Below, one piece after another: positions 4,414-26,814 of a stretch of DNA of 38,392 nucleotides (position 1 is the stretch's first letter; each line of letters opens with the position of its first letter). The notes beneath the pieces are model-generated. The model made no database searches, was not told the origin of the DNA, and saw only the letters and a list, made by a program, of their open reading frames with translations. The stretch is taken from the NCBI GenBank assembly GCA_035691305.1, contig DASSJF010000074.1:1-38392 (forward strand), in the 5' to 3' direction. The DNA is from a bacterium (lineage in GTDB: Bacteria; Sysuimicrobiota; Sysuimicrobiia; Sysuimicrobiales; Segetimicrobiaceae). The translations under genes were made by a program, and so were the position numbers.

Positions 4414-6216
4414 CTACGACCGCTCCTCGGCGGGACGCCGGCGGCGGCCGCCCCTCCCCCGCCCGCGGCGCCGCGGCCGCGCCGGCCCGTTCGGCGACAT
4501 GAGCGGCAGCGGAGCGGCTTCGATCGGGGGGGGCGACGGCTCACGTTCGGGACGCCGGCCCCGCACCCAGGCCCAAAGCCGTACGAGCACGCCGGGACGG
4601 GACGCTTCGATCGGGCGCAGCATCCGCGCGTCGACGGTCTCGTCGTCCGGCACGTTGAGCGGCTCGCCGCGCACGGGATCGAGCCAAATCGCCTCGCCCG
4701 CGCCGTCGCCCTGGGCCGCCTGCCGCGCGGCGGCTTCCGGGGTATCGGCCTGCCGGACCACCGCGCGGTCGAGATGGATGCCCGGCCGCGGCAGCACGAG
4801 GACGCGCTTGCCGGTGGCCTGTTCGAGCGCCCGCCGCCACGCCGGGTCCTCTTCGAGCAGGACCGCGACGTCGGGGTGCACCTCGGCGACGACGCAGGCC
4901 GCCCGCGCGGTCTGCGCGAGCCGCCGCAGTTCACGCCGCGCGCGCACCGCGACGCTGCGCGGCGAGAGGACCCGGCCGCGACCTTCGCAGTACGGGCACG
5001 GAATCCGCATCAGCTCCTCGAGGTCCTGGTAGACGCGCTTCCGCGTCATCTCGACGAGCCCGAGGCCGGTGAGGTCGATGATGTGGATCTTCGTCCGGTC
5101 GGCGCGGACCGCGTCGCCGAGCGCGTCGAGGACAGCCCGCCGGTGCTGCAGGGACTCCATGTCGATGAAGTCGATCAGGATGATGCCGCCAATGTCCCGC
5201 AGCCGGATCTGCCGCGCGATCTCCCGCGCCGCCTCGATGTTCGTCTTGAGGATCGTGCTCGCGAGGTCGGTCTTCCCGACGTACTTGCCGGTGTTGACGT
5301 CGATGACGGTCGCCGCCTCCGTCCGGTCGAACACGAGGTAGCCGCCGCTCTTCAGCCAGACCTTGCGGTGAAGCGCCCGCTCGATCTCGCGCTCGACGTG
5401 GTGACCCTCGAAGATCGGCGCCGGGCCCTCGTGCAGCTGCACGCGGCCGGCGAGCGCCGGACTGAAGGTACCGATCAGTTCGCGGACCCGCCGCCATTCG
5501 TCCGGCGAGTCGAGCACAAAACGCTGGACCTCGCCGGTGAAGAGATCGCGCACGACCCGGCGGATCAGGCCGAGGTCCTGATAGAGGAGCGCCGGCGCGC
5601 GGGCGTCGCGCGCGCGGCCGGCGACGCCGCCCCACAACTGCAGCAGAAAGCGGACGTCGTCGGCGAGGTCCTTCTCCGCCACGCCTTCCGCGGCGGTCCG
5701 CACGATGAGCCCCATGCCCTCGGGCCGGAGGCGGTCGGCGATCGCGCGGAGGCGTCGCCGCTCCTGCTCGTCGCCGATCTTGCGGCTGACGCCGATGCCG
5801 GGCACGGTCGGCGTAAGCACGAGGTAGTGCCCCGGCAGCGCCACGTAGGTTGTCGCCCGCGCCCCCTTGCTGCCGCGCGGCTCCTTGGTGACCTGCACGA
5901 GGATCTCCTGACCGACGCGCACCCGCTCGGCGATCGCCGCACCCCGGCCGATGTGGTCCTCGATCTCCTCGGTCGCGCCGAACGCGGTGATGCGGCGGGT
6001 GCGGATGTCAGAGAGGTGCAGGAACGCGTTGCGGTCGAGCCCGACGTCCACGAACGCGGCCTCCATGCCCGGCAGTACGCTCGCCACGCGGCCCTTGTAG
6101 ATGTTGCCGGCCAGCGGCTCGCCGCGCTCGATCAGGATACCGACGACGACGCCGTCTTCGACGACGGCCACGCGCACTTCAAACGGTTCGACGTTGGCGA
6201 TGATCTCTTTGGCCAT
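4414..6216 (-). CDS. rng: Ribonuclease E/G family endoribonuclease
   Basis: 600-residue RNase of the E/G family that cleaves 5'-monophosphate RNA for rRNA maturation and mRNA decay. An S1 domain starts at GNIYKGRVASVLPGMEAAFVDVG (about 38-125); the DNase I-like catalytic part contains VIDVNTGKY (D306) and LIDFIDM (D349), the two Mg-binding aspartates, and a Zn-link CPYCEGRG (C407, C410). After about 430 the protein continues into a tail ending in an Arg/Gly-rich stretch, so it is longer than RNase G (about 490) but far shorter than E. coli RNase E. ATG start has GGAG five bases upstream. It follows rodA by 13 bp and precedes the rplU promoter. Confidence 0.93.
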   Translation of the reverse strand: MAKEIIANVEPFEVRVAVVEDGVVVGILIERGEPLAGNIYKGRVASVLPGMEAAFVDVGLDRNAFLHLSDIRTRRITAFGATEEIEDHIGRGAAIAERVRVGQEILVQVTKEPRGSKGARATTYVALPGHYLVLTPTVPGIGVSRKIGDEQERRRLRAIADRLRPEGMGLIVRTAAEGVAEKDLADDVRFLLQLWGGVAGRARDARAPALLYQDLGLIRRVVRDLFTGEVQRFVLDSPDEWRRVRELIGTFSPALAGRVQLHEGPAPIFEGHHVEREIERALHRKVWLKSGGYLVFDRTEAATVIDVNTGKYVGKTDLASTILKTNIEAAREIARQIRLRDIGGIILIDFIDMESLQHRRAVLDALGDAVRADRTKIHIIDLTGLGLVEMTRKRVYQDLEELMRIPCPYCEGRGRVLSPRSVAVRARRELRRLAQTARAACVVAEVHPDVAVLLEEDPAWRRALEQATGKRVLVLPRPGIHLDRAVVRQADTPEAAARQAAQGDGAGEAIWLDPVRGEPLNVPDDETVDARMLRPIEASRPGVLVRLWAWVRGRRPEREPSPPPIEAAPLPLMSPNGPARPRRRGRGRGGRRRRPAEERS

Positions 6217-6229
6217 TCCCGCTCCAGTG

Positions 6230-7339
6230 CTAGAAGAGAATCTTCTGCCGACGCATCCCGACGTTCAGCAGCAGCGCCACCGCCCAGATCATCGTCATGA
6301 GGGCGCTGCCGCCGTAGCTGATGAACGGCAGCGGAATGCCGGTGATCGGCATGATCCCGACCGTCATCCCGACGTTGACGAAGACGTGGAAGGCGACCAT
6401 GGACACGATCCCCACCGCGACGAGCGCGCCGAACCGGTCGCGCGCGACCGACGCCGTGCGCACGCCGCGCACCAGCCACACGTAGAACAGCGCGAGCAGC
6501 GCCACGCAACCGATGAACCCGAGCTCCTCGCCCACGACCGAGAAGATGAAGTCGGTGTGGTGCTCCGGCACGAACTGCAGCACGTTCTGGGTGCCCGCGA
6601 ACAGTCCCTTGCCCCACAGCAGACCGCTGCCGACGGCGATCTTCGACTGGATGATGCCGTACCCCGATCCGAGCGGATCGAGCGAGGGGTCGAGGAACGA
6701 CAGAAGCCGCCGGCGCTGATACGCCTTCAGGATGTGCCAGGCCAGCGGCGTCACCGCCGCGCCCGCGACGCCGATGAGCGCGAGGTCGCGCCGCCGCGCC
6801 CCGCCGGCGTAGAGCATGCCGGCGAAGATCGCGCCGTAGACCATCGCGGTGCCGAGGTCGGGCTGCCGAAAAATCAGGATCATCGGGATCGCGATGTGCG
6901 CGAGGAATGGCAGCAGGTCGCGGACCGACTCGTACGGCCCCGGCCGGTCGGTGAGGTGTCGCGCGAGGGTGACGACGATCGCGAGCTTCGCGAACTCGGA
7001 CGGCTGGAACTGACCGAGCGGCCCGAGCGGGATCCACCGCTGCGCGCCGAGGCTCGACCGGCCGGCGACGAGGACGGCCGCGAGCAGCACCAGGTTTACA
7101 ATGTAGAGCGCGCGCGCGCCGGACGCGAACGAGCGGTAATCGACGGCGAGAATGCCCCCCGCGATCACCACGCCGACGACGAGGTGCAGCACCTGACTGC
7201 GCACGTACACCAGCGGGTGCGGCCCGTAGTGCGTCGTGCTGTACACCATCACAAGGCCGAAGAGGCAGAGCAACAGCGTCGAGCCGAGCAGATACGGATC
7301 GAGGTAGCGAACGACCCGGCGGTCGAGTCCGATGCTCAC
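6230..7339 (-). CDS. rodA: Peptidoglycan glycosyltransferase RodA (SEDS family)
   Basis: 369-residue polytopic membrane protein of the SEDS family that polymerises lipid II during side-wall growth with PBP2. Around ten hydrophobic segments are visible; landmarks are QRWIPLGPLGQFQPSEFAK, RQPDLGTAMVYG and the C-terminal GIPLPFISYGGSALMT, all family signatures. The GTG start (7337-7339) overlaps the mrdA TGA in a GTGA junction; the longer open frame upstream is an mrdA shadow. Directly downstream of its partner PBP2, as in most rod-shaped bacteria. Confidence 0.95.
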   Translation of the reverse strand: MSIGLDRRVVRYLDPYLLGSTLLLCLFGLVMVYSTTHYGPHPLVYVRSQVLHLVVGVVIAGGILAVDYRSFASGARALYIVNLVLLAAVLVAGRSSLGAQRWIPLGPLGQFQPSEFAKLAIVVTLARHLTDRPGPYESVRDLLPFLAHIAIPMILIFRQPDLGTAMVYGAIFAGMLYAGGARRRDLALIGVAGAAVTPLAWHILKAYQRRRLLSFLDPSLDPLGSGYGIIQSKIAVGSGLLWGKGLFAGTQNVLQFVPEHHTDFIFSVVGEELGFIGCVALLALFYVWLVRGVRTASVARDRFGALVAVGIVSMVAFHVFVNVGMTVGIMPITGIPLPFISYGGSALMTMIWAVALLLNVGMRRQKILF

Positions 7340-13038: not shown

Positions 13039-14115
13039 TCATCGGGTCCGGACGGTCACGAACTCCACAAGGGCGGCGAGGCTGTCGTGCGCCGCGGACG
13101 GCGGCAGGCCGTCGAGGGCACGCGCCGCGCGCTGCGCACGATCGCGCGCCACGGCCAGCGCCCGCTCGATCGCGCCTGTCCTGGCGAGAATGGCCTGGAC
13201 CTCGTCGAGGGACGGCGGCGCGGCCGGGGGGCGTCCGGATTCGGGCCCCGCGGACAGTCCCGCCGCGGACAGCGCCAGGGCGGCCGCCTCGGGCCGCGCG
13301 CGGCTCCCGTCGGCGTCGAGGATCTCGCGCAGGCGCCGCGCGTCCGCCGCGGACGCATCCCGCAGCGCGAAGATGATGGGCAGCGTCACCTTGCCGGTCT
13401 GAATGTCGCTCCCGATCGGCTTGCCGACGTGGTCGGCGGTCGCCGTCAGGTCGAGGGCGTCGTCCGTGATCTGGAACGCCAGGCCCCACTCGAGGCCGAA
13501 GACCGCGAGGGAGGCGGTGGCATCCGCCGGCGCCCCGGCCGTCACGGCGCCGCACCGGCAGGCGGCCTCGGTCAGCGCCGCAGTCTTGCCGTCGATGATG
13601 CCGTAGTAGATTCCCTCGTCGGTGTGCGGCGTATTGCCGTGCTTGATCTGGATAATCTCGGCTTTCGCCATGCGCACCGTCGCCGCCGCCATCGCGGCCG
13701 CGACACCCTCGGTGCGGATCCGCGCAAGGATGTGGAACGCTTTCGCGAAGAGAAAGTCGCCGAGCAGCACCGCGACCTGGTTCCCCCATACCGCGTTCAC
13801 CGAGGCCTGGCCGCGCCGCAGATCCGCGGCGTCAATGACGTCGTCGTGGATGAGCGAGGCGACGTGGATCAGCTCGACGGCCCCGGCGACGCCGAGCCGG
13901 TCCGGGTCGGGCGCCGCGGAGCCGCCGGACGCCACGGCCGAGAGGCAGGCGAGCGCGGGCCGCAGCAGTTTGCCGCGACTCGCGAGCACGTGGGTCACCA
14001 GTTCGCCGACGAAAGCGTCTTCGGTGGAGAGTTCCGCGCGGAACACACGCTCCAGCGCGTCCAAGTCGCGACGCACGGGCGCATAGATCCGTTCCAGGGC
14101 CACGACCTGCGTCAC
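13039..14115 (-). CDS. Long-chain polyprenyl diphosphate synthase
   Basis: 358-residue trans-prenyltransferase that extends isoprenoid diphosphates, probably for the menaquinone side chain. The first Asp-rich motif is DDVID (D91-D95) and the second DDALD (D218-D222); GKLLRP (about 48-53) binds IPP. Residues before the first motif are small (HVASLIH), as in long-chain enzymes. An Ala/Pro-rich insertion of about 35 residues sits near 275-310. GTG start has GGAGG 7 nt upstream. It lies 45 bp after the cytochrome b operon on the same strand, which fits a role in making that complex's quinone; exact chain length cannot be told. Confidence 0.9.
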   Translation of the reverse strand: MTQVVALERIYAPVRRDLDALERVFRAELSTEDAFVGELVTHVLASRGKLLRPALACLSAVASGGSAAPDPDRLGVAGAVELIHVASLIHDDVIDAADLRRGQASVNAVWGNQVAVLLGDFLFAKAFHILARIRTEGVAAAMAAATVRMAKAEIIQIKHGNTPHTDEGIYYGIIDGKTAALTEAACRCGAVTAGAPADATASLAVFGLEWGLAFQITDDALDLTATADHVGKPIGSDIQTGKVTLPIIFALRDASAADARRLREILDADGSRARPEAAALALSAAGLSAGPESGRPPAAPPSLDEVQAILARTGAIERALAVARDRAQRAARALDGLPPSAAHDSLAALVEFVTVRTR

Positions 14116-14160: not shown

Positions 14161-14340
14161 CTAGGCTTCGGCGACGATACCGTAGAGCGTGACGAAATAG
14201 ACGAGCACAAAGAACAACAGCCAGAAGATCAAGTAGCGCCAATAGATGCTGCTCTGGGACGGAGGCGCGCCGGCGTCGCGCTGACCCGCGCGTGCGCCGC
14301 CCGCCGCGCCGGAAGCCGCTGCAGGCCGGTGCTCTGCCAT
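14161..14340 (-). CDS. Small single-helix membrane protein, end of cytochrome b operon
   Basis: 59 residues: a low-complexity Ala/Gly N-terminus of about 28 residues, then one strong membrane helix (YLIFWLLFFVLVYFVTLYGIV). ATG overlaps the stop of the MvhD-like gene by one base, so it belongs to the operon. No family recognised. One-helix subunits are typical of respiratory and b6f-type complexes, so an accessory subunit is plausible but unproven. Confidence 0.65.
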   Translation of the reverse strand: MAEHRPAAASGAAGGARAGQRDAGAPPSQSSIYWRYLIFWLLFFVLVYFVTLYGIVAEA

Positions 14341-14864
14341 CACGATTCCTCCTGAGCCTCGGGCGCCGGGGCGGCCTGCTCTGCGCCCCGGCCGGCCGGC
14401 CGCGCCTGGGGACGGGTCGGACCACCGCCGGGCGCGCGCGGCGCCGGGACCACGGGCCCGGGCAGCTGCGCGACGCGGTCGCTGAACGCCTTCACCCCGG
14501 CGACAAACTCTTTCTGATCGTGCAACCCGAAGTAGATCGCCGCAATACGGTCGGGATGGATTTTCTGCCGCTCGAACCGCCGCCGCAGCTGCACGACCCG
14601 GTCCCCGATCAGGTTGTTGCCGAGGCGGTTGAAGCAGTCGCCGAGCGGACAGCCGCAGACGAACACCCCTTCCGCGCCGTTGCGCAGCGCGAACTCCAGC
14701 CAGGCGGGCCGGATGAAGCCGGAACACGGCACCTTGATCAGTTTGACGTTCGGCGCATCCCGCATCGTCCCGTCGGCGTCCATCAACGACGACGCGTCGA
14801 CGGCGAAATCGCACAGGAACCCGACGATGCGCGGGCGACCCGGCTGCCGCGCTAGCTCCGGCAT
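14340..14864 (-). CDS. MvhD/FlpD-like iron-sulfur protein
   Basis: 174 residues. Residues 10-140 follow the MvhD/FrhD-like 'hydrogenase iron-sulfur subunit' family: RIVGFLCDFAVDAS, VKLIKVPCSGFIRP, and GVFVCGCPLGDCFNRLGN. In that family the protein carries a 2Fe-2S cluster and passes electrons to a heterodisulfide-reductase-like partner. Here the first site has one Cys (C17 region) where the family usually has C-x-x-C, while CSG and CGCPLGDC are intact. An Ala/Pro-rich tail of about 35 residues follows. It overlaps the end of the cytochrome b-ferredoxin gene by 13 bp. No hydrogenase or Hdr gene is present in the window, so the partner is unknown. Confidence 0.8.
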   Translation of the reverse strand: MPELARQPGRPRIVGFLCDFAVDASSLMDADGTMRDAPNVKLIKVPCSGFIRPAWLEFALRNGAEGVFVCGCPLGDCFNRLGNNLIGDRVVQLRRRFERQKIHPDRIAAIYFGLHDQKEFVAGVKAFSDRVAQLPGPVVPAPRAPGGGPTRPQARPAGRGAEQAAPAPEAQEES

Positions 14865-16009
14865 GCCGCCACCACCTTCTCCTGAACGTCGCGTTCAAGC
14901 ATCCGCGGCAGCTCGAGCGCCTCGAACGGGCACGCGCCGATGCAGATGCCGCACTCGACGCACCGCGATTCCAACACTACCGCGAACAGCTTCCGGGCCT
15001 GCGCCGCCTTCGTGACGCCCGGGTGCGGGCTCGGCGTCATCACGATCGCGTTGTACGGACAATCGTAGTAGCACAACTCGCAGCCCGTGCAATTCGCGTC
15101 GACCACCTGCGCGATCCCGGAGTCGCGGATGCCGAGCGCCGAGGGCGTCTCCGGCAGCTGGTACGGAATGTACAGGCCGTACACCACGATAACGACGGCC
15201 AGCGCCACCAGGACGACCGGCGACAGCACCTTGAGGCCCACGTACGGCAGCAGGAAGAGCCAGTCCACGGCGAGCGCCTGCGGCACGGCATCCGGGCGCG
15301 CGGCCGGCTGGCTCGCCGCCGGCAGCAGGCCGGTCAAAAGAAAGACCAGGCCGAGCGAGAACAGCGTCCAGACCGCCGGCGGCCACACCTTCGGGTGCCG
15401 GATGCGCACGTAGTGCCACCACAGCAGGATGTACAGGAGGACCGCGAGCCCGACGTGCAGATAGAGCATGCGCGGGAGCAGCAGGTTGGAGATGCCGGCG
15501 CTCCCCTGCCACTCGTTCTGCAGCCACCCGCCGACCCACGGCACCGCGCCCAGCGTGCGCCCGGTCAGCGCGACGATCAGCTGGCTGCGCTCGTCCCACA
15601 CCAGCACGTAACCGGTCACGCCGAGGAACCCGGTGAACAGCAACAGCATCATGCCGCTGATCCACGGCTCGTCGCGCGAGAAGCGGAACCGGTCTGTGAA
15701 CCAGTTGCGGAAGAAGTGCAGCAGCACCGCGATCATGAAGCCGTCGGCGGCGTACCGATGGACGCCGCGGATGATCTGGCCGTACGGAACCTGGTTCGTG
15801 ATGAACTGCACCGAGATGTACGCGTCGTTGAAGGACGGGATGTAGTACAGGAACAGGAAGATGCCGGACAGCACCAGGATCGTCAGGAACAGGTTGGACA
15901 GGCCCCCGGTATAGTACAGTGGATTGAAGTCCTCGGGGTAGACGCGGTTGATCGCCACGTCCAGCCGGAGCGTCCAATCCAGGAGACGGGCGAGCGCCCG
16001 GCTATACAC
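14852..16009 (-). CDS. Cytochrome b fused to a 2x[4Fe-4S] ferredoxin domain
   Basis: 385 residues. Helices A-D of a cytochrome b domain hold all four heme ligands: H84 and H98 in helix B, H185 and H199 in helix D, both pairs 14 apart. Two more helices follow (about 212-230 and 252-283). Where Qo-site proteins have PEWY there is V-D249-W-L-F, so that motif is degenerate. The C-terminus (about 296-370) is a bacterial-type ferredoxin with C307, C310, C313, C317 and C350, C353, C356, C360, enough for two 4Fe-4S clusters. Six helices would put the ferredoxin on the cytoplasmic side, next to heme bH. GTG start (16007-16009) has GGAGG about 8 nt upstream and overlaps the previous gene by 8 bp. It probably joins membrane quinone/heme chemistry to a soluble low-potential carrier; direction of flow is not known. 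Confidence 0.88.
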   Translation of the reverse strand: MYSRALARLLDWTLRLDVAINRVYPEDFNPLYYTGGLSNLFLTILVLSGIFLFLYYIPSFNDAYISVQFITNQVPYGQIIRGVHRYAADGFMIAVLLHFFRNWFTDRFRFSRDEPWISGMMLLLFTGFLGVTGYVLVWDERSQLIVALTGRTLGAVPWVGGWLQNEWQGSAGISNLLLPRMLYLHVGLAVLLYILLWWHYVRIRHPKVWPPAVWTLFSLGLVFLLTGLLPAASQPAARPDAVPQALAVDWLFLLPYVGLKVLSPVVLVALAVVIVVYGLYIPYQLPETPSALGIRDSGIAQVVDANCTGCELCYYDCPYNAIVMTPSPHPGVTKAAQARKLFAVVLESRCVECGICIGACPFEALELPRMLERDVQEKVVAACRS

Positions 16010-16196
16010 CCGTGAATCCTCCCTTTCTCAGAAATAGGAGAATGAACGAGTACGCCAGCAGGATCACACCGACGGCGACGCCGCCGACGAGCCGCTGCCC
16101 CGCGAGCTCGCCCCAGGCGATCGCCACGACCGCGGCCAAGCTCACGAGCGAGAGGATCAGGATCCAGCCGCCGTAGCGCGACTCGCGCTCGGTCAT
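16002..16196 (-). CDS. Small two-helix membrane protein
   Basis: 64 residues with two hydrophobic segments (about 10-28 and 38-56), ending FLRKGGFTGV. ATG overlaps the preceding stop in an ATGA junction, so translation is coupled. No family recognised. Its conserved place between the two cytochrome b genes suggests a structural subunit of the complex (inference). Confidence 0.7.
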   Translation of the reverse strand: MTERESRYGGWILILSLVSLAAVVAIAWGELAGQRLVGGVAVGVILLAYSFILLFLRKGGFTGV

Positions 16197-16459
16197 CGGG
16201 CCGCGCCCTTTTTCATCGCGATCACCCACTCGTACACGCCGACATGGTGGCGGATCCGGCCGGCCGCCCGGTCCACCTCGTACAGCAGAAACCCGAGCCA
16301 GCCCATCACCGCGAGGAGGCCGAGTCCGAGCACGAGCGCCGCGGAGGCGTGGTCGAGCGTCGGCGCCGCGCGCCAGTCGCGCCACGCCGCGAGGAACTGG
16401 CTCAACGCGAGCGTCGCGACGATCAAGAGCGCCCAAAACGTCAGCTTGCGCCTGGACAT
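16193..16459 (-). CDS. Small two-helix membrane protein
   Basis: 88 residues, ATG two bases after the cytochrome b stop. Two hydrophobic segments (about 7-25 and 39-60) and a charged end containing RHHVGVYEWVIAMKKG. Not recognised. Its two adjacent His (in RIRHHVG) lie outside the helices. Likely an accessory subunit by context only. Confidence 0.7.
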   Translation of the reverse strand: MSRRKLTFWALLIVATLALSQFLAAWRDWRAAPTLDHASAALVLGLGLLAVMGWLGFLLYEVDRAAGRIRHHVGVYEWVIAMKKGAAR

Positions 16460-16461
16460 GC

Positions 16462-17610
16462 TCAGGACGCGGCCGCCGGGCGGCCGGCGGGCACCGGGCG
16501 GCGGGCTGCGGCGGCCTGCGCCTTACGGCGCCGGTGCACCATTTCCCAGATAAAGGCAAACGACAGCACAACGATCGTCACCGCCAGAATGATCGGCGGG
16601 TCCCGGCTGATGACCGCGATGTTAAGCATGATCAGCGTCGTGAACCCGATGAAGAGCGCGAGCGCGTACGCGCCGACGACGAAGAAGAACGGACGCTCGA
16701 GCGGCCGCGTCTCCTTGGTCCGGTCGAGGAACGGCACGATCATGCCGTAGCCGATCAGCAGGCCCGGCGCGATGCCGGCCCAGAGCGGCGGCATGTACTT
16801 CACGAGCTGGTACAGCGCGAGGAAGTACCAGTCCGAGAGGATCGGCAGCGGAGTCCGGTTCGGGTTGGCCCACCGTCCCATCGCCGTGAGCTGATCGAAG
16901 CTCACGTACGTCAGGAACGCGAGTATCAGACCGATCGTGAAGAACGAGAGATTGAGGCGCCGCCGGCGCGTCCGGTAGAAGAAGATCTCCGCCAGAATCG
17001 CGAAGACGATCGAGATTCCGTAGTGGATTGCGTAGAACCGGGTCAGCGTCGGCTGCCCGAGCGCCGGACCGCCGAGAAAGATGTAGGCGATCGCGTGCCC
17101 GATGCCGGTCTGCCCGACACCGGGAATCTCGTCGTAGTACGTGGGCACGGTCAGGACCGTCTTGGCCGCCCAAAACGCCCGCTGGTTCCAGATCAGCGCG
17201 TAGCCGGTGATGCCCGAGATCATCGCGAGCACCAGCGACGCGAAAAGGATCATCCACGACAGTTCGCCCGGCTTCTTGTACTCGCCGGCAAAGTACATGC
17301 GGTAGATGCGGATCGTGATCGAAATGACCAGCATGTCCGCGCCGTATTTGTGGAAGCCGCGCACGAGCCAGCCGAACGGGATGTCTTCCGTCAGGTGCAT
17401 GATCGAGCGGTAGGCGCCGGTGGTCGTCGGAATGTACCAGACCATCAGGATGATGCCGGAAACGATGACGATCATCCAGGTCAGCCAGACGAGCCCGCCG
17501 ACGATGTACAGCGGGTTGTCCTGCTGCGCCGTCTTGGTTTCGTCGAACAGGTCGAGATGCTGCTTGCGGTCGTGCAGCCACTCCTTGAGGTTGGCCAGCA
17601 TCGCCTCCAC
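16462..17610 (-). CDS. Cytochrome b of a Rieske complex, lacking both heme bH ligands
   Basis: 382 residues with the b6/subunit IV order in one chain: helices A-D to about residue 212, then three or more helices. The first His of each pair, which bind heme bL, are present (H87 in RGFHKYG, H196 in TRFYAIHYG). The second ones, which bind heme bH, are not: R101 replaces His in helix B, and F210 (F211 if spacing is 15) replaces it in helix D. The helix C glycines and YKKPGELSW are as in normal family members. The Qo motif is S-D260-W-Y, close to the PDWY seen in Firmicutes and Actinobacteria. GTG start is preceded by GGAGG with 7-8 nt spacing; three bases separate it from the Rieske stop. Expected to oxidise quinol with the Rieske protein, but without an obvious heme bH or Qi site of its own. 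Confidence 0.9.
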   Translation of the reverse strand: MEAMLANLKEWLHDRKQHLDLFDETKTAQQDNPLYIVGGLVWLTWMIVIVSGIILMVWYIPTTTGAYRSIMHLTEDIPFGWLVRGFHKYGADMLVISITIRIYRMYFAGEYKKPGELSWMILFASLVLAMISGITGYALIWNQRAFWAAKTVLTVPTYYDEIPGVGQTGIGHAIAYIFLGGPALGQPTLTRFYAIHYGISIVFAILAEIFFYRTRRRRLNLSFFTIGLILAFLTYVSFDQLTAMGRWANPNRTPLPILSDWYFLALYQLVKYMPPLWAGIAPGLLIGYGMIVPFLDRTKETRPLERPFFFVVGAYALALFIGFTTLIMLNIAVISRDPPIILAVTIVVLSFAFIWEMVHRRRKAQAAAARRPVPAGRPAAAS

Positions 17611-17613
17611 GCG

Positions 17614-18279
17614 CTAGGCCTCCACGCGGCCGGGCTGCGGGCACTGCGCGATCCCGCCCGTCTCCGCGCCCGTGACGGTGATGTCCTGGCCCTTGATTTC
17701 GAACTTGAAGTAGCGGGCGCCGCGCGGCGCGGGCCCCGAGATCACGTTGCCTGGATCGTTCGGATACAGCGGGTCGTAGATGCTGAGGTGGCACGGGCAC
17801 GCCATCAGCGAGTGCTTCTCCCAGCTCGGCGGCACAAAGCCGCCGTACCCGGCCGTGACTTCGTGCCAGTCCGGAATAAAGTTGAAGATGCAGCCGAGGT
17901 GTGGACAGATCCGCTGAAACAGCACGACGTCGGTCTCGCCGTCGTACCCGACGTATCCCGAGGCGTTGACGAACTTGACCTTCTGGGGCAGCTTGAGCGC
18001 CACGCCGGCGATGTTGGCCTTCTTGGCCCCGTCCACGTCGTACTGAGGGTACGACTGGATGTACGTGAAGTAGAAGTAGTCCCACGGCTTCTGGAGCGAC
18101 GCCGTGGAGCCGACGATCTGCGCGCCGCCGGACGGCGTGTCGCGCTTCGTCAGGTCGATCTGGAACGGACCAACGTTGGGCTTCAGGAACCGCAGCAGCG
18201 GCGACAGGATCGCCAGAATGCCCCCGACGATCGGGATCGCCGTGAGCGTCTTCAGCAACCGCCGCCGATCGAACTTCAT
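17614..18279 (-). CDS. Rieske [2Fe-2S] protein of a cytochrome bc/b6f-type complex
   Basis: 221 residues. A Tat-like N-terminus (DRRRLLKTL) leads into one membrane helix (about 12-30). Cluster box I is CPHLGC (C125, H127 ligands) and box II CPCHLSIY (C161, H164 ligands), with C130 and C163 for the disulfide. S166 and Y168 correspond to the Ser and Tyr that raise potential in bc1-type Rieske proteins, so a high-potential cluster is expected; the Gly of CPCHGS is Leu. Takes one electron from quinol at the Qo site and hands it to cytochrome c. First gene of the two-cytochrome-b operon, 70 bp after the cytochrome c gene. Confidence 0.94.
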   Translation of the reverse strand: MKFDRRRLLKTLTAIPIVGGILAILSPLLRFLKPNVGPFQIDLTKRDTPSGGAQIVGSTASLQKPWDYFYFTYIQSYPQYDVDGAKKANIAGVALKLPQKVKFVNASGYVGYDGETDVVLFQRICPHLGCIFNFIPDWHEVTAGYGGFVPPSWEKHSLMACPCHLSIYDPLYPNDPGNVISGPAPRGARYFKFEIKGQDITVTGAETGGIAQCPQPGRVEA

Positions 18280-18349
18280 CGCCTCACTCGCCTCCTAGTG
18301 CCCCCAGCGTCATCATACTGCGCCGCTGTCCCGTTCCGCGAGGTCGGGG

Positions 18350-19222
18350 TCACTTGATGGGCGGATGCTTGTAGAAGAACGTGTAGACGTAGTCCACCAG
18401 CCCGTCGAGCTGTTGCTTGGTCAGCTTGCCACGGAACGACGGCATCAGCCCGTGACCGTCGAGGATCGCGTTACTCAGCTCGCTCGGGTTGCGCTGCACC
18501 ATCTGGTTCGGATCGGTGAAGATGCCGGGGCCCTCGTGCCGCGCCCACGACCACAGCTGCCCGGCCATCTCCGCGCCGCGGGGGCCCCGGCCGTCGCCGT
18601 TCACACCGTGGCACGCCGCGCACTGCTGGTCGTAGAGCTGCTTTGCCGCGCTGAGCTCCTCGGGGCTCGTGCGAAACATCATCTCGTACGCGTTCGCGTC
18701 CCAGCGCTCGGCGTTCGTCAGGTCCTGGGCCTTGTTCGCGCCGAACGACGCCGCCGGCCCGAACGCGGGCATCGCGGTGTGGGGCCGCCCGCCGGTGACC
18801 GTCTCGTACATGATCGCCGGGCTGACGACCGCCTCGAGGTCACGGTTGTGGAAGTTGACCGGCTTGCTCGGCAGCGGCGGCCGGTGCAGTTCGAGATGAA
18901 ACACGCCGAGCAAGGCCGTCAGCACGTCCTTGTCCGGGGCGGTCAGCGTTGCCGCCATCGGCCCGTTGCCGTCGCCTTTGGGACCGTGGCAGACGGCGCA
19001 GTTGGCATCAAACACCTTCTTGCCTTCGATCGCGTCGGGGACGATAGGCCGTTCGTTCTCATCCGTGACGAGCGGGATCTCGACGTATTGGGTTGGGGGC
19101 AGGCTCAGGCCGACCGTGGCGCCGGTCATCCCGACCCGGCCCTGGCAACCGGCGGCGACCAACGCGGCCGCAAGCACGGCCAACGCCGCGGGTGCACGCC
19201 GTCCCCAAAACCCGGTGGACAT
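18350..19222 (-). CDS. Diheme cytochrome c lipoprotein
   Basis: 290 residues. A signal peptide ends in lipobox VAAGC (C26), so it should be lipid-anchored at the periplasmic face. Two class I cytochrome c domains: CAVCH (75-79) followed by GPKGDGNGP, and CAACH (200-204) followed by GVNGDGRGP; likely axial Met are in TAMPAFG (M150) and HGLMPSF. This duplicated quinol:acceptor cytochrome type often works as the cytochrome c1 or electron shuttle of alternative bc complexes. ATG start has GGAGGA about 12 nt upstream. The 116-bp gap before it holds no gene and no clear promoter. Confidence 0.9.
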   Translation of the reverse strand: MSTGFWGRRAPAALAVLAAALVAAGCQGRVGMTGATVGLSLPPTQYVEIPLVTDENERPIVPDAIEGKKVFDANCAVCHGPKGDGNGPMAATLTAPDKDVLTALLGVFHLELHRPPLPSKPVNFHNRDLEAVVSPAIMYETVTGGRPHTAMPAFGPAASFGANKAQDLTNAERWDANAYEMMFRTSPEELSAAKQLYDQQCAACHGVNGDGRGPRGAEMAGQLWSWARHEGPGIFTDPNQMVQRNPSELSNAILDGHGLMPSFRGKLTKQQLDGLVDYVYTFFYKHPPIK

Positions 19223-20340: not shown

Positions 20341-20615
20341 CGCGCGCCCATCGCGTCCAGGCGCCGTAGCGCGTCGATCGCCACGGCCTCTTGCCGAGCC
20401 CGCAGCGACTCGTAGTCCGCGTCGCTCATCTTGCCGGTGGCGTGGTCAAGCGTGAGGTCACGGAGCGTCCGCAGGGCCGCCTCGCGCTCCCGCAGAAGCC
20501 GCGGACGCTCGTCGAACACGACGCCGTCCCCGGCGCCCTCCCTGCGGCGCCAGAGCGGCGCGAGCACGTACCACGCTGCCACGGCGGCGAGCGCGACCGC
20601 GATCGCCGCGGTCAC
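20337..20615 (-). CDS. CcmI-like cytochrome c biogenesis protein (short)
   Basis: 92 residues: one N-terminal membrane helix, then a helical segment LREREAALRTLRDLTLDHATGKMSDADYESLRARQ typical of the N-terminal part of CcmI/CycH-like proteins. The TPR domain of full-length CcmI, which holds apocytochrome, is absent. GTG start overlaps the ccmF stop (GTGA). Called by motif and position. Confidence 0.65.
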   Translation of the reverse strand: MTAAIAVALAAVAAWYVLAPLWRRREGAGDGVVFDERPRLLREREAALRTLRDLTLDHATGKMSDADYESLRARQEAVAIDALRRLDAMGAR

Positions 20616-22600
20616 CGTCCGGCGGTCCCGACGAGGCGCGCCGGCACCGTCACCACCGCCGGCCCCGGACGCGCCTCCGGCAGCATCGCGATGATCGCGC
20701 CGACGCTGAGGACAAGGCCGCCGGCCCACATCCACATCACGAGCGGGTTGACGAGCAGCCGCAGCGTCGCCCGCCCGTCCGCCGCCCAACCGACGAGCGT
20801 GATGTACAGGTCGTCCCGCGGCGTGCTGCGCAGGGCCACCTCGCTCGTCGAGTCGCGGCCGTTGAGATACAAGTTGCGCGCGGCGGTGAGCGGGCCGAGG
20901 TCCCGCGCCCCGTCGAAGACGCGGAGCCGCGCGCCGACGACGAGCGCGCCGTGCGCGGTCGCCTGTCCGAGGCCCTCGTAGCGCACCCGGTACGGTCCGA
21001 CCGCCGCGCTCTCACCCGGTGCGAGCGTCGCCACGCGCTGCGTCGCGAAGACGGACGAACCCGTCACGCCGCAGAGCAGGAGCAGCATCCCGAAGTGCAC
21101 GATGTAGCCGCCGTAGCGCCGGCGGTTGCGCGCGATGAGCGCCACGAACGCCCGCGGCGCCGCCTCGCCGCGCAGCGACTGCCGGACGCGCATCCCGCGG
21201 GCGAATTCGAGGACAATCGTGCCCGCCACAAAGCCGGCGAGCGCGAAGACGAGAACCGGCCCGGACGCCCGCATGCCCGCGCCGAGCAGCACCCCGGCGA
21301 CGGCCACGCCCGCGGCGCCCGGCGCCAGGAAGTTGCGGCGTAGGTGCTCCGCCGAGGAGCGGCGCCAGGCGAGCAGCGGTCCTACGCCCATCAGCACCAG
21401 GAGGCCCGCGGCAAGCGGCGGGACGACGTGGTCGAAGAACGGCGGGCCGACGTTGATGCGCCGGCCCGTCAGTACTTCGGAGATGACGGGAAAGACCGTG
21501 CCGAGGAACACCGCCAGCGCAATCGCGAGAAACAGCACGTTGTTGAGGACGAACGCACTCTCCCGCGACAGCGCCGCGTCGAGCTCGTACCGGCCGCGCA
21601 GGGCGTCCCACCGCCACGCCGCGACGGCAAACGCCGCGATCAGGGTCCCGGCGAGAAACACGAGGAACAGCGTGCCGAGCGACGACTGCGTGAACGAGTG
21701 CACGCTGCTCAGCACGCCGCTGCGGGTGAGGAACGTGCCGAAGATCGACAGGCCGAACGCGAGGATCACGAGCACGACGTTCCAGCGGCTCAGCATCTCG
21801 CGGCGTTCCTGAATCATCACCGAGTGAATGAAGGCGGTCGCGACAAGCCACGGCATCAAGGCGGCGTTCTCCACCGGGTCCCACGCCCAGTACCCGCCCC
21901 ATCCGAGCACGACGTACGACCATTTCGCGCCGAACCACAACCCCATGCTGAGGCAGTACCATGCCCAGACCATCCAGCGCCGAGCCAGCAGCACGCCGCC
22001 GTCGGCGGCGTGCCCGGACCCGAGGGCCGCCATGACGATCGCAAACGGCACCGTCAGACCGACGTAGCCGAGATACAACGTCGGGGGATGGATCGCCATC
22101 CAGGGATTGAGCAGCAGAGGGTTCATGCCTGCTCCGTCGGCCGGCGGGAACGGCACGGTCGTGAACGGCGACGCGACCGCGGTCAGCATCACGAGAAAGA
22201 AGGCTGCCACGCCGCCGAGCACCACGACCATCCCGGGAACCAGCGCAGGCTGCGTGCGACCGACCGCCCGGAGGGCCAGCAGCGAGTAGCCGGCCAGCAC
22301 GAGGGCCCACAGCAGCAGCGAGCCTTCCATACCCCCCCAGAAGGCCGTCAGATCGTAGATGAACGGCTGTGCGTCATTGACGTGCGCGGCGACGTACTGG
22401 AAGGTGTAGTCGCGGGTCGCGAGCGCGTACCAGAGTACAATCGCGGCCGCGCCGAGCATCGCCGCGGACCCGCCGAGGGCCCGGACCGCGCTCGCGACGA
22501 ACTCCGCGCGGCGGGCGCGCGCGCCGACCGTCGCTCCGGCGATGGCGTACAAGGTCAGAGCGAGCGCGCCGAGGAGAGCGAACCGGCCGAGGCTAGCCAC
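20612..22600 (-). CDS. ccmF: Cytochrome c heme lyase subunit CcmF
   Basis: 662-residue polytopic membrane protein that attaches heme from holo-CcmE to apocytochrome c. Landmarks: AIHPPTLYLGYVG (H171), the periplasmic WWD heme-handling motif WGGYWAWDPVENA (234-245), FGTFLTRSGVLSSVHSF and, after the last helices, a periplasmic domain. Length and order match CcmF. GTG start three bases after ccmE. Confidence 0.96.
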   Translation of the reverse strand: MASLGRFALLGALALTLYAIAGATVGARARRAEFVASAVRALGGSAAMLGAAAIVLWYALATRDYTFQYVAAHVNDAQPFIYDLTAFWGGMEGSLLLWALVLAGYSLLALRAVGRTQPALVPGMVVVLGGVAAFFLVMLTAVASPFTTVPFPPADGAGMNPLLLNPWMAIHPPTLYLGYVGLTVPFAIVMAALGSGHAADGGVLLARRWMVWAWYCLSMGLWFGAKWSYVVLGWGGYWAWDPVENAALMPWLVATAFIHSVMIQERREMLSRWNVVLVILAFGLSIFGTFLTRSGVLSSVHSFTQSSLGTLFLVFLAGTLIAAFAVAAWRWDALRGRYELDAALSRESAFVLNNVLFLAIALAVFLGTVFPVISEVLTGRRINVGPPFFDHVVPPLAAGLLVLMGVGPLLAWRRSSAEHLRRNFLAPGAAGVAVAGVLLGAGMRASGPVLVFALAGFVAGTIVLEFARGMRVRQSLRGEAAPRAFVALIARNRRRYGGYIVHFGMLLLLCGVTGSSVFATQRVATLAPGESAAVGPYRVRYEGLGQATAHGALVVGARLRVFDGARDLGPLTAARNLYLNGRDSTSEVALRSTPRDDLYITLVGWAADGRATLRLLVNPLVMWMWAGGLVLSVGAIIAMLPEARPGPAVVTVPARLVGTAGR

Positions 22601-22603
22601 GCC

Positions 22604-23035
22604 TCACCGCGGGGATTTGGGATCCGCCGGGTTGTACTTCGTCGGGCACTTCGCCAGCAGCGTGGTCGCGTCGAAGGCACCGTCCCGCGCGATGCCGCCC
22701 TCCACCACCACCTGCCGACCTTCGGCGAAGATGTCGGGCACGACGCCCGTGTAGCGCACCGGCAGCGTGGACGCGCCGTCGGTGATTACGAACGACAGGT
22801 GCCGGTGCGCGTCGTCCCAGCGTACGGTGCCCGCCGCGACCGTCCCGCCGAGGCGCACCCGCGGCGGAAGCGACGACGCCCGCTGCCGCAGCTCGCCGAC
22901 CGTCACCCAGTAGGTCGCCCCCTGTTGGATGCCGCCGTAGACGAGATAGGCCAGCGACAGCACGATGAGCACCGTGCCGCCGGCGAAGACGAGCGTGCGG
23001 CGTCCCGCGCCGCGCGGTCGGGCGGCGGCGCTCAC
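22604..23035 (-). CDS. ccmE: Heme chaperone CcmE, CxxxY type
   Basis: 143 residues: basic N-terminus, one membrane helix (about 14-32) and an OB-fold periplasmic domain. The heme-attachment site is LLAKCPTKY: C130 and Y134, i.e. CxxxY in place of the HxxxY of E. coli. This form is known from Desulfovibrio and archaeal Ccm systems. GTG start (23033-23035) overlaps the ccmD-like stop as GTGA; the longer frame upstream is out of family. Confidence 0.93.
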   Translation of the reverse strand: MSAAARPRGAGRRTLVFAGGTVLIVLSLAYLVYGGIQQGATYWVTVGELRQRASSLPPRVRLGGTVAAGTVRWDDAHRHLSFVITDGASTLPVRYTGVVPDIFAEGRQVVVEGGIARDGAFDATTLLAKCPTKYNPADPKSPR

Positions 23036-23157
23036 GCCGCGCCTCCGCCGAGCCGCTTCACCTCGTCCTCGAGGGCGCGCGCACGGCGAATCAACGCGCG
23101 CACGTAGACGAAGAGCGCGGCCCAGACCACCGCGAACGACCAGAAGAGATACGTCAT
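23032..23157 (-). CDS. ccmD: CcmD-like small membrane protein
   Basis: 41 residues: one membrane helix (TYLFWSFAVVWAALFVYVRAL) and a charged coiled tail (RRARALEDEVKRL), the usual CcmD shape. Overlaps ccmC (ATGA) and ccmE (GTGA). CcmD helps release holo-CcmE from CcmABC. Identification rests on size, topology and position, since the family has little sequence conservation. Confidence 0.85.
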   Translation of the reverse strand: MTYLFWSFAVVWAALFVYVRALIRRARALEDEVKRLGGGAA

Positions 23158-23843
23158 GCCGTCCGCGCCCGGTCGTCCGCAAGCGCCTCGACCTGCGCCT
23201 CCATCACGCCGAGGCCGATCCGAAGCCGCACCAGCAGGACGTACACGACGCTCCACGCGACGAGGCCGACGAGCAGCGCCCACGCCATCTGCGGCGCCAG
23301 ACCGACGCTGTGGGAGGTGAAGATCACGGGCGAGAGCGCCCGGAGGTACCGGGCTGAGAACCACACCAGCGGCACGTCGACGAACCCGACGATCGCGAAG
23401 ACCGCGGCGATCCGGCGCTGGCGGTCGTCGTCGCCGGCGGCGGCCCGGAGCAGCAAATACCCCGCGTAGATGAACCACAGAATCAGGTACGTGACGAGCT
23501 GCGGATCCCAGGTCCACCAGGTGTTCCACACGGGCCGCGCCCACAGCGAGCCGGTGATGATGACGAGGCTCGCGAACAGCACGCCGATCTCCGCGGCCGC
23601 GGCGCTCGCGACGTCCCAGCCCCGCCGGGCGGTTCGCAGATACTGCACGGCCGCCCACGCGGAATGGCCGAAGGCGACGAACCCGACCCACGCCAGCGGC
23701 AGGTGCACGTAGAAGATGCGCTGGACATCGCCCATGATGCTCTCGCGCGGCGCGTAGATGAACGCCCCGTAGAGGGCGGCGAGCATCAGGCCCCCCATCG
23801 CCCACACGAGCCACCCGTCCGGTGTTCGACGCACGTCATTCAT
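23154..23843 (-). CDS. ccmC: Heme exporter/handling protein CcmC
   Basis: 229 residues with six predicted helices. The WWD motif reads VWNTWWTWDPQL (105-116) and the flanking heme-ligand His are H47 (FYVHLPLAW) and H177 (FTSHSVGL). CcmC loads heme on CcmE. First gene of the ccmCDEF unit. The annotated ATG at 23841-23843 overlaps a good -10 hexamer, so translation may really start at GTG 23832-23834 from a leaderless or nearly leaderless mRNA. Confidence 0.94.
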   Translation of the reverse strand: MNDVRRTPDGWLVWAMGGLMLAALYGAFIYAPRESIMGDVQRIFYVHLPLAWVGFVAFGHSAWAAVQYLRTARRGWDVASAAAAEIGVLFASLVIITGSLWARPVWNTWWTWDPQLVTYLILWFIYAGYLLLRAAAGDDDRQRRIAAVFAIVGFVDVPLVWFSARYLRALSPVIFTSHSVGLAPQMAWALLVGLVAWSVVYVLLVRLRIGLGVMEAQVEALADDRARTA

Positions 23844-26289: not shown

Positions 26290-26814
26290 TTACTTAGCGG
26301 TAATCGCGGCTGCTCCCGAAGGCGTCACGCTCGGCGCCGTGGCCGTCGCGGACACGACGAGCGCATCCCACTGGCCGGAGATGGCGTGTCCGGGGACGCC
26401 GCAGACGAACTCGTACGTCCCGGCCTTGCTCGCCTCGAACGTGAAGGTCTGCGTCTGGCCCTTCGCGAGTCCGGACGAGAAGTTGCCGCTCATCGCGCCG
26501 GCGAAAGCCGGGCTGGACGGCGGCGTGACCTGCGTGTGGCCGCCGGATGCCGCCACCGCGACACTGTGGTTGGTCGCGTCCGCGTTCTCAAAATGCACGA
26601 CGATCTCCCAGCCGGCCGGAACGGTGACCGTCATCCCGCCGCGCTGGTAGCCGTTGAAGGCGAATCCCCCGCTCGCCGTCTTGTTGGCCACGATCGTGAC
26701 CTCGGCGGTATGCGCCGCCGCGTGCAGCAGCGGCGTTCCAAGCGCCATCGCCCCGGCCGCCACCAGCGCCGCAACAACGAAGATCCGCCGCGTCCCCGCC
26801 TGCCGCTGTTTCAC
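26290..26814 (-). CDS. Sulfocyanin-like cupredoxin 1 (type I copper protein)
   Basis: 174 residues. Signal or anchor helix (about 11-34), then a cupredoxin domain with FAFNGYQRGGMTVTVPAGW and C-terminal CGVPGHAISGQWD. Copper ligands: H83, C138, H143; at the axial position, ten residues after Cys, sulfocyanins have Met (GMW) while here it is Q148. That Gln is the axial ligand type known from stellacyanin. A periplasmic one-electron carrier; sulfocyanin and rusticyanin serve iron oxidation or terminal oxidases in other organisms. GTG start follows GAGGTGAGGAC. Nearly identical in its core to the protein at 28487-29035. Confidence 0.88.
   Translation of the reverse strand: MKQRQAGTRRIFVVAALVAAGAMALGTPLLHAAAHTAEVTIVANKTASGGFAFNGYQRGGMTVTVPAGWEIVVHFENADATNHSVAVAASGGHTQVTPPSSPAFAGAMSGNFSSGLAKGQTQTFTFEASKAGTYEFVCGVPGHAISGQWDALVVSATATAPSVTPSGAAAITAK

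Follow-up and report, generated by a model that had tools for sequence, protein, structure and literature searches.

Two cytochromes b with complementary losses suggest a heterodimeric bc-type complex in Sysuimicrobiota

Contig DASSJF010000074.1 of assembly GCA_035691305.1, analysed whole as a window of 38,392 nucleotides, belongs to a 3.58 Mb genome of Sysuimicrobiota, a phylum with a single order which we take to be the former CSP1-3. Its minus strand carries an operon for one Rieske protein, one diheme cytochrome c lipoprotein and two different cytochromes b, named here b1 and b2; this inventory, given in a preliminary description of the window, was confirmed at the same places by coordinates and motifs. 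From comparison of sequences, we consider it fairly probable that the operon encodes one bc-type complex with an obligate b1:b2 heterodimer as its core, in which the low-potential electron of quinol would pass from heme bL of b1 to heme bL of b2, from there to heme bH of b2, and on to iron-sulfur (Fe-S) clusters and an FlpD protein.

The comparison was based on 386 genomes, comprising 43 of Sysuimicrobiota and ~340 from outside the phylum (G000 is the source genome, other G numbers are compared genomes, and L numbers are extracted loci). Cytochromes b were aligned as a set of 15 b1 (one from another phylum), 14 b2, 12 b2-like fusion proteins and 21 canonical sequences. The bH ligand positions of b1 and b2 were assigned by profile alignment to solved cytochrome b6.

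In b1, the bL ligands H87 and H196 are invariant. Its two bH ligand positions are occupied by an invariant R101 and by F, Y or L at position 210, with His absent at both in all 15 sequences, while all four heme histidines are kept in each of the 47 other cytochromes b. The Gly and Arg positions of helix C, kept in b2 and in canonical cytochromes b, are also lost in b1, and Arg101 and Glu208 of the former bH region are invariant in b1 only. The motif of the quinol oxidation (Qo) site reads SDWY in b1, as part of the invariant stretch SDWYFLALYQ, and the Qo-side cd region retains Gln143 and Ala148; b2 is missing much of this region. Invariant in b2 are the heme ligands H84, H98, H185 and H199, among which H98 and H199 are at the bH positions, together with eight ferredoxin Cys. 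Its Qo motif is degenerate, of the form xD[W/V/L/F][F/L][F/Y], with the Asp nearly invariant. Judged by the features of bc1 and b6f complexes, b2 thus has the four histidines that b1 does not have, and b1 has a Qo motif of which b2 keeps only the Asp.

The preliminary description had assigned Qo and bL without bH to b1, and both hemes and a ferredoxin without Qo motif to b2. The assignments of hemes and ferredoxin stand, as does the Qo motif of b1, to be read as SDWY and not PEWY; the motif of b2 is degenerate rather than absent. The lost residues are complementary in the way demanded by the idea of a heterodimer. This pattern is not due to chance because it recurs across families of Sysuimicrobiota and in a second phylum. 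Low-confidence monomer models of both proteins show the correct fold, with bc1 cytochrome b as their PDB match.

Genes for b1 were found in 39 and for b2 in 37 of the 43 Sysuimicrobiota genomes. In the two genomes with b1 only (G040 and G041), the contig terminates in or beside b1. Both genes are missing in four genomes of one genus (G016, G029, G035 and G037), and losses are in this way all-or-none. The order cytochrome c, Rieske, b1, two small genes (s1 and s2), b2 and FlpD is conserved across Sysuimicrobiota families. Outside the phylum, b1 was seen once among the ~340 genomes (G151), together with b2 and with identical gene order and His losses; there, the two-b genes immediately follow the cbb3 oxidase genes ccoN and ccoO. 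Strict co-occurrence had been suggested as a check on the heterodimer, with either variant standing alone with the Rieske protein as the observation to speak against it. That observation was not made: in the 43 genomes of the phylum and the ~340 others, b1 without b2 appears only at contig ends, and the single b1 from outside has its b2. A second b1 was not found in the four genomes searched from the phylum of G151. The next-best b1-like protein outside Sysuimicrobiota (G243, L165) turned out to be a cytochrome b of the ordinary kind, in which PEWY and all four His are present.

G014 has a completeness rating of 100%, and no cytochrome b besides b1 and b2 was detected in it; for that reason the two-b complex is probably its sole bc complex. 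With respect to the genus that lacks b1 and b2, a canonical short cytochrome b was observed in G016, and HdrA-type FlpD loci in G016 and G029.

Genes of the operon follow in the order diheme cytochrome c, Rieske, b1, s1, s2, b2-ferredoxin, FlpD, a protein with one transmembrane (TM) segment, and polyprenyl synthase (Table 1). From Rieske through the one-TM protein, they adjoin or share a few bases. All genes listed in the preliminary description are present, and its list omitted FlpD as well as s1 and s2, each with two TM segments. A small membrane open reading frame is found at the s1/s2 position also in locus L156. The Rieske motif CPHLGC...CPCHLSIYD, which agrees with the CxHxGC...CxCH pattern of bc1/b6f complexes, is invariant in 34 homologues, and the protein scores under the Pfam Rieske threshold. 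Its Ser166 and Tyr168 are conserved among homologues; Ser and Tyr at the Rieske cluster are typical of high-potential clusters. The lipobox Cys and both CxxCH motifs of the cytochrome c are kept in 32-33 of 33 homologues, and this lipoprotein accounts for the c-type cytochrome subunit expected in a bc1/b6f complex. No NCBIfam model was matched at its cut-off by b1, b2, Rieske or FlpD.

The FlpD protein is a clear family member (PF02662, 83.5 bits against a cut-off of 22.3), with C18, C47, C72 and C77 invariant, and it aligns to MvhD of 5ODC. Ferredoxin and FlpD together match the C-terminus of HdrA2. A single FlpD was found in each of G000, G014, G026, G013 and G151. The ferredoxin of b2 is predicted, from the helix count, to be on the cytoplasmic side.

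In the tree, b1, b2 and the b2-like fusions form one clade against canonical cytochromes b (support 100/96). Within it, b1 makes up a single clade (100/99), and b2 the other together with the fusions (100/99). Long branches meet at these deep nodes, and the deep order is therefore less certain than the support values imply. According to these sequences, b1 and b2 are related paralogues, and b2 is closest to cytochrome b-ferredoxin-FlpD fusions without Rieske. Such single-chain proteins are present in about 11 other genomes, all outside the phylum (loci L152-L155 and L157-L164), in open frames of 538-712 amino acids, some of them with an extra C-terminal domain. No Rieske or b1 gene was detected near them in the loci of these genomes; in the loci examined, they are mostly next to genes which we take, from reading of sequences, to be CoxA-, CoxB- and Sco1-like. 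The operon protein shares with the fusions the clade of its cytochrome b, the domain order, the four heme ligands and the 8-Cys ferredoxin. FlpD is here a separate, overlapping gene, and b2 plus FlpD corresponds to the single-chain proteins found elsewhere.

Residue losses, co-occurrence and operon structure together support the heterodimer by comparative genomics, but leave it unproven. If the heme content is as we infer from the ligands, b1 would contain the single Qo site and, jointly with the Rieske protein, oxidise quinol there, and the high-potential electron would reach a terminal oxidase by way of Rieske and the diheme cytochrome c. The second electron would be transferred to heme bL of b1. 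Without bH, b1 would have no trans-membrane path for it, and the other bL is the only neighbour within tunnelling distance in a bc dimer. The electron would thus cross the dimer to bL of b2, continue to bH of b2, and reach, on the cytoplasmic side, two [4Fe-4S] clusters and the [2Fe-2S] cluster of FlpD. Loss of bH from the subunit with Qo would therefore shut that subunit's own path to the negative-side quinone site, forcing the electron to exit through b2 and the Fe-S clusters; one of two leaks to quinone would be closed in this way. The most likely function would be a bifurcation of quinol electrons that is powered by oxidation of cytochrome c and feeds low-potential electrons to the cytoplasm, and the net direction and the soluble partner of the cytoplasmic branch are its least certain aspects. 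A broader proposal is put forward tentatively: a naturally evolved bc complex, obligately heterodimeric, with one Qo site and bL-bL transfer as the sole exit for the low-potential electron, would bifurcate quinol electrons to cytochrome c/oxygen and to cytoplasmic low-potential Fe-S carriers, and would be the main complex III in a large part of the phylum.

Several observations weigh against this interpretation. The evidence for contact between the two cytochromes b is indirect, and the models are of monomers. The AlphaFold2 models are of low confidence (predicted local distance difference test, pLDDT, 56 and 60), too weak for pocket geometry. The source genome additionally encodes a canonical bc complex. 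Fusions without a nearby b1 or Rieske show that b1 is not indispensable for the working of a cytochrome b of the b2 kind. A search of 12 genomes for HdrA, with which FlpD usually pairs, found it in one, and in neither the source genome nor G014; as a partner of FlpD, and so as the acceptor of the cytoplasmic branch, it was rejected for the source genome. Finally, directly after the bH ligand of b2 there is a conserved R-x-R-H-P-K motif, whose R-x-R-H-P might serve a negative-side quinone site and so permit an ordinary Q-cycle.

The last of these points leads to an alternative that we regard as unlikely but worth serious attention, a heterodimer with a normal Q-cycle, in which b2 would use the low-potential electron to reduce quinone on its negative side, and ferredoxin and FlpD would serve a cytoplasmic donor as entry port to bH and the pool of quinones. 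Apart from the motif, it is favoured by several near-complete genomes in which no other bc complex was detected and which would benefit from a Q-cycle to conserve energy. Electron input would also fit the Rieske-less fusions beside heme-copper oxidase-like genes. However, the loss of bH from the Qo-bearing subunit would be left without explanation and quinone-reduction sites would be halved, and HdrA, as a cytoplasmic donor, is absent from 11 of the 12 genomes searched.

Two separate complexes are improbable, one in which Rieske and cytochrome c would join a homodimer of b1, and another in which b2 and FlpD would act independently as a trans-membrane or quinone oxidoreductase. A b2 homodimer is viable in principle, given that b2-like fusions stand alone elsewhere, but a b1 homodimer would give the second quinol electron no exit. 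Separate function also disagrees with the restriction of b1-only cases to contig ends, with the joint loss in one genus, and with the interleaving of the genes with overlapping small subunits. Very improbable is a non-canonical binding mode by which b1 would still hold its second heme, or a different cofactor; b1 would then not be a half-cytochrome, and the complementary logic would fail. The invariance of Arg101 and Glu208 indicates selection on the former bH pocket, and AlphaFold3 models of anammox complexes place an additional, unexpected b heme where the two halves of the dimer meet (PMC12954380), but the variable position 210 is an unlikely ligand, and the helix-C glycine is gone as well.

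The proposed heterodimer can be compared with known systems in several respects. With bc1/b6f complexes it shares a Rieske protein with cluster residues of the high-potential type, the cytochrome b fold, a c-type cytochrome and, in b1, a Qo-type motif; it differs in two cytochromes b with complementary losses and in the cytoplasmic ferredoxin and FlpD. Neither b1 nor b2 has the Cys to which heme cN is attached in b6. Engineered, cross-inactivated fusion dimers of Rhodobacter bc1, where one b has an inactivated Qo and its partner lacks bH function, turn over only through bL-bL (PMC4330944), which speaks for the proposed path. The distribution of defects is of the same kind as here, but those are man-made point mutants without a cytoplasmic Fe-S branch.

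Anammox complexes Kustd1480-1485 and Kuste4569-4574 are proposed to bifurcate quinol electrons, with a low-potential branch into a cytoplasmic Fe-S module, and leakage to the negative-side quinone is considered by the authors as the main problem (PMC12954380); they are a precedent for leading the low-potential electron into such a module. They are modelled as homodimers of b6-type cytochrome b plus subunit IV, with NAD(P) oxidoreductase and multiheme c (PMC12954380), whereas the operon encodes two unsplit cytochromes b (about 8 and 6 helices), FlpD and a diheme c. A gene for an NAD(P) oxidoreductase of the anammox type is not among the operon genes, and FlpD is in its place. FlpD/MvhD systems and the HdrA2 C-terminus have in common with the operon a ferredoxin followed by FlpD and the four invariant Cys; unlike them, the operon has no hydrogenase and its FlpD is attached to a cytochrome b, in a genome without a detected HdrA.

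Electron crossing between monomers in the normal turnover of bc1 has been argued by means of engineered mutants. If the heterodimer is correct, a natural complex of two different halves would make bL-bL transfer between monomers obligatory, giving a natural version of an asymmetric bc enzyme so far only engineered, and the question would be directly testable on it. The exit through Fe-S clusters suggests how return of the low-potential electron to quinone, stated as a problem for the anammox complexes, could be prevented. Respiration in Sysuimicrobiota would be redefined as well, possibly along with the supply of low-potential electrons for CO2 fixation. The published survey of the phylum describes facultative anaerobes, with some families autotrophic, and does not mention Rieske proteins and cytochromes. 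No earlier description of two-b Rieske complexes or of cytochrome b-FlpD fusions was found in the open-access literature searched.

Table 1. Genes of the two-b operon and its surroundings in the window
Feature	Position	Strand	Evidence
Diheme cytochrome c lipoprotein, counterpart of cytochrome c1	18350..19222	-	Pfam PF13442/PF00034 in two stretches; lipobox Cys, two CxxCH
Rieske [2Fe-2S] protein, twin-arginine translocation (Tat)-like RRR start	17614..18279	-	CPHLGC...CPCHLSIYD; weak Rieske/PetC NCBIfam matches
Cytochrome b1, about 8 TM	16462..17610	-	Pfam PF00033/PF00032; alignments; bc1-like fold in low-confidence model
Small 2-TM protein s1, between b1 and b2	16193..16459	-	Position conserved in phylum; no family match
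Small 2-TM protein s2, overlapping s1 and b2	16002..16196	-	Position conserved; no family match
Cytochrome b2, about 6 TM, with C-terminal 2x[4Fe-4S] ferredoxin	14852..16009	-	Pfam PF00033 and Fer4; alignments; model
FlpD/MvhD-type [2Fe-2S] protein, overlapping the 3' end of b2	14340..14864	-	Pfam PF02662, 83.5 bits; match to HdrA2 C-terminus
Small single-TM protein, overlapping FlpD	14161..14340	-	Conservation within own family, 42-71% identity; no Pfam match
Polyprenyl diphosphate synthase (by sequence), downstream	13039..14115	-	Synteny; context gene, not a proposed subunit
Cytochrome c maturation genes (CcmC-like, CcmE, CcmF), upstream	20612..23843	-	Pfam; context

The minus strand also encodes, a few kb upstream, a sulfocyanin (SoxE)-like cupredoxin (26290-26814) that is a possible electron acceptor for the operon cytochrome c. 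In loci L046-L049, L052, L059 and L074, from three Sysuimicrobiota families, a CcoN-like protein is inserted between FlpD and the prenyl synthase, inside the two-b operon. It matches the COX1 Pfam family, yet essentially all heme and CuB histidines are gone, making it a ligand-free pseudo-oxidase subunit. This subunit adjoins a FixO/CcoO-like monoheme cytochrome c (e.g. L049:6346-7737 and 5868-6335, minus strand).

Quinone-biosynthesis genes are patchy. The MqnA family is present in G013, G015 and G151, and MenD above cut-off in G014, G022, G026 and G016; neither was found in G000 or G021. The canonical complex of the source genome (L007:7292-9276, G000:C27) consists of Rieske and a fusion of cytochromes b and c that has PEWYF and all four His. 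Another very divergent cytochrome b of this genome, with a long branch in the tree, was observed at about 6300-7298 of L006 (G000:C27), downstream of proteins which, by reading of their sequences, are presumably cupredoxin-like and molybdopterin sulfite-oxidase-like.

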